This document shows, one piece after another, positions 38,139 to 60,777 of a stretch of 64,000 nucleotides of DNA. This DNA comes from an uncultured Anaerolineae bacterium. Lineage in GTDB: Bacteria > Chloroflexota > Anaerolineae > J036 > Brachytrichaceae. Position 1 is the first letter of the stretch, and each line of letters begins with the position of its first letter. Below the pieces are notes generated by a model. That model was not told where the DNA came from. It did no database searches and worked only from the letters and a program-made list of their open reading frames with translations. The stretch spans positions 1-64,000 of the forward strand of contig CALHLE010000026.1 in assembly GCA_938034415.1 (NCBI GenBank), given 5' to 3'. The position numbers were made by a program, and so were the translations under genes.

Positions 38139-39782
38139 TCACCGGTTGCCCTGGTTGGGGTCGAGCGAGCTAAAGTAGTCGCGCACGTAGTCGCGCATGT
38201 CGGGCGGCACACGGCCGCTGCGCAGCGCTTCGTCGGCGGCCTTCGAGTAGTCGCCGTAGACCTGTTCGTAGGGCACGCTGCTATTGCCGCCCGGCGCGGT
38301 GGAGGCGCGCCCGCTGGGGTCGGGTGCGGTCTGGTTCTGCGCTTCGGGCAGCACGACCGGCCGGCCTTCGCCGCCGATGCGGCGCGGCGCATACACCGTA
38401 TTGTCGGAGCCGAAATCATCGCTCTTGCGCGATGAATTTGTGCCGTTTAGCTCGTCGTTAGCCGTCGCGCCGACGCGCGCTGACGAGTTGCCGTCCTCGC
38501 CGCGGCCGGACGTTTGCGCCTGGCCCTGGCCGGGTTGTCGGCCCTGCGCGCCAGCCGGGGTGTTCGAGCCGGCCTGACCGACCTGGTTCTGGCCAGGGCG
38601 CTGCGATTGTGATTGTGATTGCGACGCCTGTTGGGCAATGGCTTGGCGCGCTGCTTCGGCCTGGGCTTGAGCGCGGTCTAGCGCTTGAGAAGCCTCGCGC
38701 GTTTCTTGGGCGCGTTCGAGCGATTGCGCGGCCTGGTCGAGCTGCTGTTGCGCCGCCTGCATGTTGCCCTCGCGCATATTTTGGGCCGCCTCGCGCAGCC
38801 GTCGCGCCAATTCGGGGTCGCTGTTCTGCACGCTGCGGGCCATCTGATCCAGTTGATTGGCGGCGCGCTGCATTTCCTCCTCGCTCAACGGTTGGCCGGT
38901 TTCGCTCGAATTCGTCAGGTTGCGCATCTCGTTGGCTGCGCGGTCGAAGTTCTCGTTGGCCAGCGCGTTAGCCAGCGCATTTGTCAGCGCGTCGGGTGCG
39001 AGGCTCTCGCCGGCGCGCCGCAGGTCCTCGGCTCGCTGTCGGGCGGCCTGGTCGTTTAAGGCGTCGAGCTGCGATTGGGCCTCGTTAATCGCGGCCAGCG
39101 CTTCCTCCGGGGTGACGTCTGGATCTTCCAGCTTGCGGCGTGCCTCGTCTAGCGCCTGGATGGCGGCCTGCTTTTGCGCGTCGCTCAGCGCCGAGTTCTC
39201 GATCATCTGCTTGGCCTGCTCTAGCTGCTCGATCTGTTGGGCGATTGCCTGGCGCAGTTGCTCGCGCTGGGCCAACACTTGCTGTTGCGGGTTGGGCAGG
39301 AGGATGGCGACGATCAGGGCGATCAGGAAGATGAGCGAGACGATGGCATCGCGCCGCGAGATGCGCAGCGGCATGAGCCGTCGGGCGTCCACGCTTTCGA
39401 TGACGCGCTCGGCGTCCCGGCGCTGGATGTTGCGGATCAGGTCGTTCCTGACGCTGAGGCGGCCTTCGCCGATCTCGAGCGCGGTGGAAGTTCGCTCTTG
39501 TAGGCCAAAGCGTTGATCGAAGGTGCGCGCCCACTGCATCGGCGAGGTGCGCGCATGGCGTAGCCAGGGGTAGGCGAGCGCGCTCACCAGGCCGATGACG
39601 ACCAGCGCGATGGACAAACCGATGAGCGTCGCCGTGCTCATCAGTGGGAACACGCGCGAGGCGAGGGCGATCAACAGCGCGATGCCCAAGCCGCAGGCCA
39701 GCCCGAAGAAAGCCAGGCTGACGCTATGTTGCAGGCGCGCGCGGCGCGACCATGCTCGGATGCTTTCCGTCAGTTCGTCCAT
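38139..39782 (-). CDS. Membrane-anchored coiled-coil protein (DUF4175-like)
   Basis: A 547-residue protein. Two N-terminal hydrophobic hairpin segments (about 20-65) and a third (about 150-170) anchor it. From about 180 to 400 it is a Gln/Ala/Glu-rich coiled coil. A disordered Gln/Gly/Ser linker follows, and the C-terminus ends with PYEQVYGDYSKAADEALRSGRVPPDMRDYVRDYFSSLDP. This architecture, including that ending, resembles DUF4175-type proteins that I associate with MoxR-ATPase/VWA gene clusters. No moxR or VWA gene is here. Start at 39782 (MDELTESIRAW), since the longer frame adds an implausible N-terminus. Confidence 0.65.
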   Translation of the reverse strand: MDELTESIRAWSRRARLQHSVSLAFFGLACGLGIALLIALASRVFPLMSTATLIGLSIALVVIGLVSALAYPWLRHARTSPMQWARTFDQRFGLQERTSTALEIGEGRLSVRNDLIRNIQRRDAERVIESVDARRLMPLRISRRDAIVSLIFLIALIVAILLPNPQQQVLAQREQLRQAIAQQIEQLEQAKQMIENSALSDAQKQAAIQALDEARRKLEDPDVTPEEALAAINEAQSQLDALNDQAARQRAEDLRRAGESLAPDALTNALANALANENFDRAANEMRNLTNSSETGQPLSEEEMQRAANQLDQMARSVQNSDPELARRLREAAQNMREGNMQAAQQQLDQAAQSLERAQETREASQALDRAQAQAEAARQAIAQQASQSQSQSQRPGQNQVGQAGSNTPAGAQGRQPGQGQAQTSGRGEDGNSSARVGATANDELNGTNSSRKSDDFGSDNTVYAPRRIGGEGRPVVLPEAQNQTAPDPSGRASTAPGGNSSVPYEQVYGDYSKAADEALRSGRVPPDMRDYVRDYFSSLDPNQGNR

Positions 39783-39840
39783 CGTCTTCGTCGGTGCATC
39801 ATTCCATAGCTGCTGTTCACAGCTTCCATCATCCCACATC

Positions 39841-58292: not shown

Positions 58293-58298
58293 TATAAT
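58293..58298 (+). promoter_or_regulatory. Consensus -10 element before the 58313 gene
   Basis: TATAAT 15 bases before the GTG start would yield an mRNA with only a few leader bases, that is, near-leaderless. No matching -35 is obvious. Confidence 0.5.
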
Positions 58299-58312: not shown

Positions 58313-59896
58313 GTGGAGAAGGTCCTCGATCGCGTGATACATCGCCCAACCCAAACCGCAGATTACTGGTCCGCCCTCACCATTACTGCGGATGATGCGG
58401 ATTTCCTTTACAGTTTCATTCTTGAAGCGGGAAAGCCTCAGCGCATCGCCGATCTGGCGCTGGCGCTTGTCCGCCACCGTGTTGACCAAGAGAATGCTGC
58501 GCTGCGCCGCCAATGGTCTGATAACAACGTCTACCAACCGAAGAAGCGTTATGCAATTGGGGAAAGACTGGTCTTCCCGGCGCTGAAGTTTGCTTCCGGC
58601 CAAGTCGTTGGGGTGCGTCCGGGCAATAACCCAGACCTGGGTGAGTTCGAAGTCATCTCCGTGCAGTTCGACGATGGCCGGCGCCGCGAATTTGCGGCCA
58701 ACTACCATCGCCCGCATCGTCTGAACGATGAAGATGCGACAGCGCTTTTCGATTCAGCATCGCTTCAATCGCCTGAAGCGTTGTACGAGGCGTACGGCCG
58801 ATACGTCGTTGCCGCGCTAGAAGCCGCGCTTGAGGGCAACCGCGAATTCATCCGCATCGGCGATGAGTGGTTCCTGCGCGCCCTCATGGCTGAAGTGAAC
58901 ATCGGCCACCTGAACTTGGCGGAAGCGGTGCTCGATATGGCGAACGGTGGGCCGCTGACGACGGATGTGATTCTGCGCGATTTGGGGTTGCCGCCGGACG
59001 TAAGCGCTAACGTGCAGGAAGTCTCGCTGAATAGCGCGCTGGCCGCGGATCCGCGCTTCGACGAAGTCAGCTTGAACGACACGCCGGCTTGGTTCCTTCG
59101 GCGGTTGGAGCCGGTAGAGGCGCGAGAGATGCCGGAAGTGTTGCGCGCCGAACGGCCATCGGGGCGCGCCGCGCTAAGCCCTGAACTTGCCGCGCTGGCC
59201 TATGAGCTGGACGATGAGCTGGAGTTCGACGAAGCAGCGCCGGTGTCGCCGGCGCAGAGCGCCACGCTTATCCTAACCTATCCGCACCGCCGCGCCGGCA
59301 CGCTGGGGTGGTCGCGCGCCGCAGCGTCCGTTTTGCCGCAGTCGCGCAAGCCGCGCATCCCGATGCGCTTCAAAGACCGCTTGACGCAGAAAGAGATGAC
59401 CGTGTGGTTGGTGCGCGAAGGGCGCTACATTTGGGGGCTGGGTGACTGGTTCAAGGCCAATGACCTCCCCGCCGGCGCCTACATCGAACTGGCGCGCAGC
59501 GACGCCGAAAACGTCGTGTGGATAGACTATCGCCGGCGAAGGCCCAAGCGCGAGTGGGTGCGCGTGGCCAGCGTGCGCGATGGCCGGCTGTGCCTGGAGA
59601 CGGCGCAGCGCGCGGTAGCGTGCGAGGTAGATGAGCTGATGTCCGTGTTCGTGGATGACCCACGCGCGCTAGATGTGCTGCGCGCCGAGCGACGGCGCGA
59701 CCCCTTGCAAGCAGTGCGCGAGGCCTTCCCCGAGATCGCCAAGCTGAGTCCACAGGGCAACGTGCACGCCCGGACGCTCTACGCGGTGGTGAACGCGATC
59801 ACGCGCAGCACGCCGACCGACGTGTTCGCGGCATTGGCGGCGAGCGGCGCGTATGTGCCGGTGGGAGACAACTACTGGCATCTGGGCGAGCGTTGA
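58313..59896 (+). CDS. Uncharacterised protein with winged-helix-like C-terminus
   Basis: A 527-residue soluble protein that I cannot assign to a named family. The GTG at 58313 fits the nearby -10 box. The N-terminal 150 residues include a helix-rich part and a small beta-rich region (IGERLVFPALKFASGQVVGV, FEVISVQFDDGRRREF). An Ala/Glu-rich linker lies around 290-330. A second beta-rich module spans 345-450. The end, LYAVVNAITRSTPTDVFAALAASGAYVPVGDNYWHLGE, looks like a winged helix of the HARE/RpoE-delta kind, suggesting a transcription or DNA-linked role. The next gene is similar in style, so they may act together. Confidence 0.65.
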   Translation: MEKVLDRVIHRPTQTADYWSALTITADDADFLYSFILEAGKPQRIADLALALVRHRVDQENAALRRQWSDNNVYQPKKRYAIGERLVFPALKFASGQVVGVRPGNNPDLGEFEVISVQFDDGRRREFAANYHRPHRLNDEDATALFDSASLQSPEALYEAYGRYVVAALEAALEGNREFIRIGDEWFLRALMAEVNIGHLNLAEAVLDMANGGPLTTDVILRDLGLPPDVSANVQEVSLNSALAADPRFDEVSLNDTPAWFLRRLEPVEAREMPEVLRAERPSGRAALSPELAALAYELDDELEFDEAAPVSPAQSATLILTYPHRRAGTLGWSRAAASVLPQSRKPRIPMRFKDRLTQKEMTVWLVREGRYIWGLGDWFKANDLPAGAYIELARSDAENVVWIDYRRRRPKREWVRVASVRDGRLCLETAQRAVACEVDELMSVFVDDPRALDVLRAERRRDPLQAVREAFPEIAKLSPQGNVHARTLYAVVNAITRSTPTDVFAALAASGAYVPVGDNYWHLGER

Positions 59897-59912
59897 AACA
59901 TACGAGCATGCG

Positions 59913-60329
59913 ATGAAGCTTTTGCGACCAACCGAGAACACGCCGTTTCACATTGACTATTCCTGGTTTGAAAAGAACGGCCAGGATGTCAACGTGCTGA
60001 TCTACAAATGTCTGACGCCGGAGCAACAGGAACGGCTAGCTGGTTTGCCGGCCGATGAAGCACTTGACTTTGTTGACGAAGCGACCGGCGAGGTGCGGCG
60101 CGTGACGCGCGCACTGCAGATGATTCGCGCCGAGCGCGCCGGCGATGCGACGTTCATCAGTGCGCGTCTGCCTTTGGCCGAATCCGTCTTCCGCGTCTTT
60201 TTGCTTAACGACAATGAGCCGTTGACGCCGATCGAGCTGGCAGCGCGCATCGGGCGCAAACCTTCTGAGATCCTCGCTCAACTTGGCGGCCGCGCTGTTT
60301 ATAATGGCATACGGCCGATTATGAACTAG
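59913..60329 (+). CDS. Uncharacterised small protein, possible HTH C-terminus
   Basis: A 138-residue protein, start ATG at 59913 (MKLLRPTENTPFHIDYSWF); the frame from 59853 overlaps the previous gene and is rejected. The C-terminal PLTPIELAARIGRKPSEILAQLGGRAVYNGIRPI has helix-turn-helix spacing. The middle contains CLTPEQQERLAGLPADEALDFVDEATGEVRRV. No named family is recognised. It is cotranscribed with the 58313 gene (16-base gap). Its stop codon TAG shares its last base with the first base of tRNA-Arg, so the tRNA is likely cut from the same transcript. Confidence 0.7.
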   Translation: MKLLRPTENTPFHIDYSWFEKNGQDVNVLIYKCLTPEQQERLAGLPADEALDFVDEATGEVRRVTRALQMIRAERAGDATFISARLPLAESVFRVFLLNDNEPLTPIELAARIGRKPSEILAQLGGRAVYNGIRPIMN

Positions 60330-60402
60330 CCCCCGTAGCTCAATCGGATAGAGCAGGGCACTTCTAATGCCGAGGTTGTGAGTTCGAGTCTCGCCGGGGG
60401 CG
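60329..60402 (+). tRNA. tRNA-Arg (anticodon UCU)
   Basis: A cloverleaf can be folded by eye: acceptor GCCCCCG/CGGGGGC, D-arm GCTC...GAGC, anticodon stem GGGCA/TGCCG around CTTCTAA (anticodon TCT), a 5-base variable region and T-arm GTGAG-TTCGAGT-CTCGC. Discriminator is G and CCA is not encoded (CCT follows). Pair 27-43 is a G-G mismatch at the base of the anticodon stem. The TCT anticodon reads AGA/AGG codons, which are rare in this GC-rich segment. Confidence 0.95.
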
Positions 60403-60777
60403 CCTTTGGCTGTCCTCTATGCTCGTTGCCCACCCGTTCTAAGTCTTGCCCGCCCCGCCGCTGCCCTGGCCTCAAGGCGCAAACGGCCGATGTGTTCGGC
60501 GAAGTCGCCCCTTGGTGGTAGCGCTTGTTGCTGCATGCTGTCAGCCTGGCGCTGATCGTCCTGCTTTGGTTATCGTTGCGCCGTCTGCCTGCTCATATGT
60601 AGAGCGGCTGAAGCCGCAGGCCAGAGGACTTGGCAGTGCGGCTTATCGGGATCGACCGCACGCTGGCGCATGGTGACCGCCCATGCCGTTGTCGCGTGTG
60701 CCACCATTCATGCTTGTCACAATGCGCTAGTTGAGATACTCTCGGAGGCATTCTTCCACCACACGGAGTGACACATC
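60403..60777. other. Intergenic stretch between tRNA-Arg and xylB
   Basis: About 375 bases without a credible gene. One frame encodes a short Leu-rich stretch (LLLHAVSLALIVLLWLSLRR) near 60527-60590 that could be a membrane-segment remnant, but it has no start context. No terminator with a T-run was seen after the tRNA. A GGAG lies 12 bases before the xylB ATG (60763-60766). Confidence 0.4.

Follow-up and report, generated by a model that had tools for sequence, protein, structure and literature searches.

A near-universal gene pair of Anaerolineae with a predicted B3-type DNA-binding fold and a promoter-like box of tRNA-Arg(UCU) within its second gene

Two adjacent genes, here called A and B, precede the gene for tRNA-Arg(UCU) on the plus strand of a 64-kb stretch of DNA from an uncultured Anaerolineae bacterium (contig CALHLE010000026.1; the whole 64,000-nucleotide [nt] stretch is referred to as the window). 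In one Chloroflexota class A and B are near-universal and usually adjacent, and the last codons of B contain an exact TATAAT, kept across a family of genomes, which would be the -10 box of the tRNA's own promoter. The interpretation that we favor, and consider moderately well supported, is that A is a DNA-binding protein with B as its partner, and that most transcription of the tRNA starts at a dedicated promoter inside B; the linkage of the genes, the conserved TATAAT codons, an asparagine fixed in B, and the predicted fold of A are its computed elements. More tentatively, we propose that a plant-type B3 fold has a role here beyond restriction systems, as part of a core regulator found throughout the class, and that a tRNA promoter in the partner gene has fixed an otherwise free residue family-wide. 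The class is the genome collection's own grouping, named Anaerolineae from the record names. Judged by gene A (92% identity), the closest relative with a name is Candidatus Roseilinea sp. NK_OTU-006, of the Chloroflexota, and the 80 best named loci bear titles such as Thermoflexales, Anaerolineae, Anaerolineales, Caldilineae, and Ardenticatenia. The principal features are these:

58334-59896, plus strand: gene A in its likeliest extent, 520 amino acids, with a start position kept in relatives
59913-60329, plus strand: gene B, 138 amino acids, adjacent to A, with a winged-helix-like C-terminal part in the AlphaFold2 model
60300-60305, plus strand: TATAAT, the putative -10 hexamer of a promoter for tRNA-Arg, formed in frame by the codons of Tyr130-Asn131 of B
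60329-60402, plus strand: tRNA-Arg(UCU) by Rfam, sharing base 60329 with the stop codon of B

The full open reading frame (ORF) of A extends from a GTG at 58313 to 59896 on the plus strand (527 amino acids), and residue numbers of A follow this longer reading throughout. B opens with an ATG at 59913; in the mechanical ORF list it begins earlier, at 59853. ARAGORN placed the tRNA (anticodon TCT/UCU) at 60329-60404 and the Rfam tRNA model placed it at 60329-60402. The last G of the B stop codon TAG (60329) is G1 of the tRNA, as the initial annotation had noticed. The pattern of the first 28 bases of the tRNA occurs once in the bacterium's own genome (2.83 Mb, 83 contigs).

The TATAAT box within gene B

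The TATAAT in B starts 29 nt and ends 23 nt before tRNA-Arg(UCU), placing a -10 hexamer of a sigma-70-type promoter close upstream of the tRNA. Among the 28 family genomes, Tyr130 is encoded by TAT in 23 and Asn131 by AAT in 26, and TAYAAT is kept in 26. At 16 further conserved two-fold positions in B, the share of codons ending in T is 8 to 73%. The 37 window ORFs taken as genes hold 13 Tyr-Asn pairs, and that of B alone reads TATAAT. The residue after the tyrosine is Asn in 28 of 28 family proteins versus 2 of 30 outside the family, both of the latter reading TACAAC.

The location of the box was determined for each locus with the tRNA no more than 100 nt behind B, by searching within 55 nt of the tRNA with one mismatch allowed. 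The -10 box was inside B in 20 of 26 family loci and never in the gap; none was seen in the other six. Outside the family it was inside B in none of 28 loci, in the gap in 12 (three of them reaching into the stop codon), and not seen in 16. In the window's own genome, the last 40 nt ahead of the gene were examined for 30 of the 47 tRNA genes found by Rfam, tRNA-Arg(UCU) included. A -10-like box was present at 25 of the 30 versus 1 of 30 in the control stretch, and an exact box at 12 versus none. The five tRNAs lacking a box within 40 nt (loci L237, L238, L239, L240, and L248) all belong to clusters of tRNA genes, and two follow another tRNA. Most of these tRNA genes (loci L231 to L260) have a TATAAT-like box starting 13 to 31 nt upstream, many with no TTGACA evident by eye.

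These patterns suggest that the TATAAT in B is the tRNA's own promoter, which in this family would have moved into the final codons of B, and that the fixed Asn131 is the promoter's trace in the B protein. The codons of Tyr130 and Asn131 would double as the -10 box, and the tRNA would be transcribed mainly on its own; promoter activity is deduced here from sequence conservation. Two points count against this. No -35 hexamer was matched at 16 to 18 nt before the tRNA -10 box (4 of 6 positions needed), and we therefore call the box in B promoter-like, not a full -35/-10 promoter. The 28 family genomes also share one ancestor, so counts within the family are not independent events.

If the TATAAT were kept for protein reasons, as a Tyr-Asn motif, there would be no promoter in B and the tRNA would start elsewhere. 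Tyr130 is indeed nearly invariant in the B alignment (at least 90%), and the missing -35 hexamer fits this explanation as well. We nevertheless consider it very unlikely: outside the family the residue after the tyrosine is mostly Leu, Lys, Met, or Arg, and where it is Asn the codon is AAC; both codons of the pair end in T more often than those at the 16 other conserved two-fold sites; and a box within 40 nt is the rule for the genome's own tRNA genes (25 of 30).

Bacteria are known to have intragenic promoters, in which a -10 box located in one coding sequence can drive the gene that follows. The box in B differs in that it would serve a tRNA, is kept family-wide, and goes with an asparagine that is fixed here and free elsewhere. 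The TATAAT codons would offer a compact test of a promoter dictating protein sequence, as the Asn131 position can be compared between lineages with the promoter inside B and those with it outside B.

tRNA-Arg(UCU) as a neighbor and the stop-codon overlap

tRNA-Arg(UCU) lies behind B in 27 of the 28 family genomes, and in the 28th the contig ends. The exact one-base overlap with the B stop codon is found in 11 of these 27 (the window's own genome included), among them all 9 of the genus; the others comprise one 10-nt overlap and gaps of 0 to 72 nt, a full range of -10 to +72 nt. Of the 30 tRNA genes examined in the own genome, tRNA-Arg(UCU) alone overlaps by one base the stop codon of a preceding ORF at least 80 amino acids long; at one other (L234) such an ORF extends 10 nt into the tRNA. 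As it recurs in 11 of 27 family genomes and is unique among the 30 own tRNA genes, the one-base overlap is not chance.

The initial annotation took the tRNA to be cotranscribed with A and B, with processing of the tRNA cutting the mRNA at the stop codon of B. Developed as an alternative, this would mean that RNase P cleaves within the stop codon and so limits the translation or stability of B. All three genes are on the same strand, and a terminator between B and the tRNA was not found, there being no such space; the end of B does contain one terminator-like site (60284-60297), no better than chance, just before the TATAAT box. Read-through from the gene A promoter is therefore possible, and this part of the claim stands. 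It may also feed the tRNA at the 16 of 28 close loci outside the family where no -10 box was recognized, and the one-base overlap itself recurs across a whole genus. Conservation of the box in B at both the codon and the amino acid level speaks against the tRNA arising solely by processing of an A-B mRNA, and a gap that ranges from -10 to +72 nt means that the position of the cut relative to the stop codon is not conserved, so the idea of a regulatory cut is not supported. We regard the alternative as unlikely. The initial annotation had itself named a tRNA promoter inside the second gene, together with a known family for the proteins, as findings that would speak against it; a promoter-like box is there and a family membership is not, which goes largely against the earlier picture. 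Because the distance between B and the tRNA varies within the family, we interpret the overlap as tight packing of the two genes and not as a means of regulation; transcripts from A could run on into the tRNA and be cut within the stop codon, but nothing requires this.

The neighborhood was surveyed more widely in 134 distinct B loci pooled from all sets (163 before identical ones were removed; the window itself excluded). tRNA-Arg(UCU) lies within 1.5 kb downstream of B in 74 of these, at 100 nt or less (overlaps included) in 54 and at 101 to 1,500 nt in 20, the observed distances in these 20 being 107 to 1,409 nt; 9 loci are on short contigs. Counting against a strict linkage, the tRNA is absent behind B in the remaining 51, all with at least 1.5 kb downstream visible. 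For loci outside the family the corresponding figures are 48 of 107 with the tRNA within 1.5 kb, 51 without, and 8 on short contigs. A limitation of the link to one family was rejected, as the wider loci show it across the class. A quickly built tree of 75 A proteins, its deep forks weak, has 41 rows linked to the tRNA and 28 far from it. Their distribution requires at least 7 changes, versus a mean of 21.9 when shuffled; from these few changes we conclude that linkage to the tRNA probably goes far back in the class and was lost or regained several times, and tRNA-Arg(UCU) would be an old downstream neighbor of the pair. No tRNA-Arg(UCU) was found in 20 loci scanned around distant A-like or B-like genes.

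Apparently large B/tRNA overlaps in four loci (L164, L180, L185, and L195) were rejected, as tblastn had run through a stop codon; the actual gaps are 73, 22, 23, and 7 nt. In another locus (L151, from 4360 onwards), an ATG overlaps the B stop codon (TGATG), and a gene may therefore have been inserted there between B and the tRNA. Folding the RNA around the tRNA was uninformative (z of -0.21).

Distribution and predicted folds of A and B

Gene A was found in 58 of 60 genomes and gene B in 58 of 60 (own genome included), mostly with one match per genome. Both are present in 57, and in 52 of these they are adjacent and on the same strand. The five exceptions are four genomes of one genus and one genome with the genes on different contigs. 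Of the 80 named loci, 77 have both genes, adjacent in every case; an apparent A-B fusion in L151 was rejected, since tblastn had run through a stop codon and a TAA is visible between the two. A draw of 301 genomes from the phylum gave A in 37 and B in 37 of its 38 class members. ORF clustering of the class neighborhoods yielded no other class-wide gene, minus-strand ORFs over the pair excepted, the next clusters reaching at most 13 genomes. We take A and B to be an old two-gene module of the class, core genes without a Pfam or NCBIfam name; a search of open-access literature (listed titles and abstract openings) turned up neither this pair nor a B3 core protein from bacteria.

The small B protein, winged-helix-like at its end, would most likely be the partner of A. 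Two findings bear against this. In the genus of four genomes mentioned above (loci L074, L075, L078 to L081, L047, and L019), A is on another contig and B stays by tRNA-Arg(UCU); the promoter inside B may lock B and the tRNA together there. Among 263 genomes outside the class, a distant A-like gene occurs in 39 and a distant B-like gene in 36, with no genome containing both, which speaks against an obligatory partnership. From these, 10 A-like and 10 B-like loci were fetched. The gene downstream of the A-like gene is a HEAT-repeat gene, not B, in five of six scanned loci (L272, L273, L274, L275, and L279) and a bifunctional-nuclease gene in the sixth (L278). Two distant B-like genes (L267:1607-2125 and L269:4561-5091) lie directly behind YebC/TACO1 genes, without A.

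That A and B lack a recognizable family, as first annotated, was borne out: Pfam and NCBIfam yielded nothing significant for either. When 40 A and 43 B members were scanned, only scattered weak matches came back, the best being WH_GDS1 (E value, 2.6e-4) in 4 of the 43 B members. A sequence search of the PDB with A, B, and the B3-like part gave no credible match (best E value, 0.092, B to a chemotaxis protein), and PHROGs gave nothing usable, with a single match of unknown function (E value, 0.034). The AlphaFold2 model of A, built from 75 alignment rows, has a mean predicted local distance difference test score (pLDDT) of 91.3 and a predicted template modeling score (pTM) of 0.73. Its predicted parts are as follows:

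58358-58519, plus strand: A residues 16-69, N-terminal helices by model secondary structure, with no fold match shown
58550-58702, plus strand: A residues 80-130, a four-strand barrel-like part, perhaps SH3/KOW-like, by model secondary structure
58892-59113, plus strand: A residues 194-267, winged helix (8x6g_E, Z of 7.5; 9a6y_A, Z of 6.9; forkhead domains, about 7)
59252-59542, plus strand: A residues 314-410, B3-type DNA-binding fold, by the model and a structure search
59702-59884, plus strand: A residues 464-524, C-terminal winged-helix-like segment (helix-turn-helix and strand), by model secondary structure

Residues 314-410 of the model superpose on the plant B3 domains of FUS3 (6j9b) and VAL1 (6j9a) with a Z of 11.6 and a root-mean-square deviation of 2.3, over 97 and 96 residues at 20 and 18% identity, respectively. 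The top 16 fold matches of A are all plant B3 domains (Z of 10.1 to 11.6); they are followed by the bacterial LlaJI.R1 (Z of 9.0), three more plant domains (8.2 to 8.8), and the first unrelated fold (7.7). Basic residues, candidates for DNA-contacting arms, are conserved at positions 325-327 and 368-371: His325 in 75 of 75 A members, Arg326 in 53, Arg327 in 51, and Arg371 in 56. A is most likely a sequence-specific DNA-binding protein of the chromosome or of transcription, which would read DNA through a B3-type domain framed by winged helices and the barrel-like part.

Several results weigh against these assignments. The B3 pseudobarrel is present in a predicted structure, not a solved one. 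In Foldseek the plant B3 domains rank first at E values of about 0.007, with none below 0.001, and the B3 domains of BfiI (Z of 7.3) and NgoAVII (7.1) rank below the first unrelated row. The Pfam B3 profile, PF02362, touched 1 of 75 A members (E value, 0.092); scanned over 199 class genomes it gave no match above the cutoff, nor any at gene A in the nine genomes listed for which the position of A is known. We therefore speak of a B3-type fold in A and leave A outside PF02362. For B, a structure search gave no clear fold match (best Z, 5.6).

The plant domains (FUS3, VAL1, and ARF1) differ from A in context, A being bacterial, joined to winged helices and a barrel-like part, and unrecognized by the Pfam profile. 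The winged helix of A matches 8x6g_E, a chain of an RNA polymerase complex, and 9a6y_A, titled RPOE-RPOC, and may be akin to that of the RNA polymerase delta subunit (RpoE), of the HARE-HTH type. A 194-273 matches the former over 75 residues; both Z values are below 8 and tied with forkhead domains, A is much larger than RpoE, and the match of residues 194-267 may reflect only a common arrangement. Foldseek lists the elongation factor EF-P (3tre; probability of 0.98, E value of 0.52) without a residue range, and we place it on A 80-130 by deduction.

The model of B has a pLDDT of 87.7, with a helix-turn-helix and strand segment at residues 88-135. B 86-138 matched AntR (6uvu) with a Z of 4.5, and B 85-138 matched Rv1404 (2nyx) with a Z of 4.4. 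The winged-helix-like ends that the initial annotation ascribed to A (464-524) and B (88-135) are seen in the predicted models. The B consensus of many class members has Cys residues (LCPEC and a later Cys) which are absent from the window's own protein (its residues 33-36); elsewhere in the class these hint at a metal site.

A and B could instead be RNA-binding factors, on the tRNA or ribosome side, with a functional link to tRNA-Arg. The association with one tRNA species across the class fits this, as do SelB (5lzb and 1lva), Egalitarian, and EF-P among the weaker Foldseek matches and the two B-like genes adjoining YebC/TACO1 genes. The strongest fold match is to a DNA-binding B3 domain, however, and A and B persist without a nearby tRNA in 28 of 69 scored rows, so we consider this improbable. 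A further suggestion, that A-B is a restriction or defense system, draws on the B3 folds known from bacterial restriction enzymes: LlaJI.R1, BfiI, and NgoAVII share the bacterial setting and match the same fold at A 312-411, with Z values of 6.7 to 9.0. These matches are weaker than those to plant domains. A catalytic or nuclease domain is matched nowhere among the chains listed with residue ranges, the restriction enzyme 2c1l and the methyltransferase 6neg matching A at 312-411 and 196-267. Since A-B is also a core pair near-universal in the class, mostly with one match per genome, we regard a restriction role as highly improbable.

To our knowledge, bacterial B3 folds are otherwise confined to restriction enzymes, B3 being known only from these and from plant transcription factors. 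If the predicted fold of A is true, B3 would gain a third setting, bearing on its origin, in a gene pair that is core to a large bacterial class and carries no Pfam or NCBIfam name. No counterexample to the restriction of bacterial B3 folds to such enzymes appeared in the titles and abstract openings of the open-access literature, and individual passages in PMC6599366 and PMC4267653 agree with it.

Start of gene A and a second tRNA call

The region ahead of A contains a further predicted promoter element and two candidate starts:

58293-58298, plus strand: TATAAT, which would be the -10 box for gene A and lies 14 nt ahead of the first GTG
58313-58333, plus strand: upstream in-frame GTG plus a Shine-Dalgarno (SD)-like GGAGAAGG (58315-58322), likelier leader than coding

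Starts were scored in 51 genomes, the others lacking the anchor motif or enough upstream sequence. A start codon lies within 2 codons of the position of the second GTG (58334) in 49 of the 51. An SD-like run, by a loose motif (AGGA, GGAG, GAGG, or AAGG, 4 to 18 nt before the start), precedes this conserved start in 45 and is 12 nt away in the window; an exact TATAAT occurs no more than 110 nt ahead of it in 38. A start in frame and exactly 21 nt farther upstream, corresponding to 58313, is limited to eight genus members and one other genome; other in-frame upstream starts occur in 15, and none was present in the searched stretch in 27. Translation of A most likely begins at 58334. The leader would then be about 28 nt long, if transcription starts about 7 nt past the -10 box, and the near-leaderless promoter originally proposed for A is not upheld. 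The pair would be transcribed from this conserved promoter at 58293-58298.

The Rfam tRNA search of the genome placed no tRNA at 38285-38354; an ARAGORN call there of tRNA-Pro(GGG), 70 nt long and antisense to a 566-amino-acid ORF (38139-39839, minus strand), is therefore probably false.

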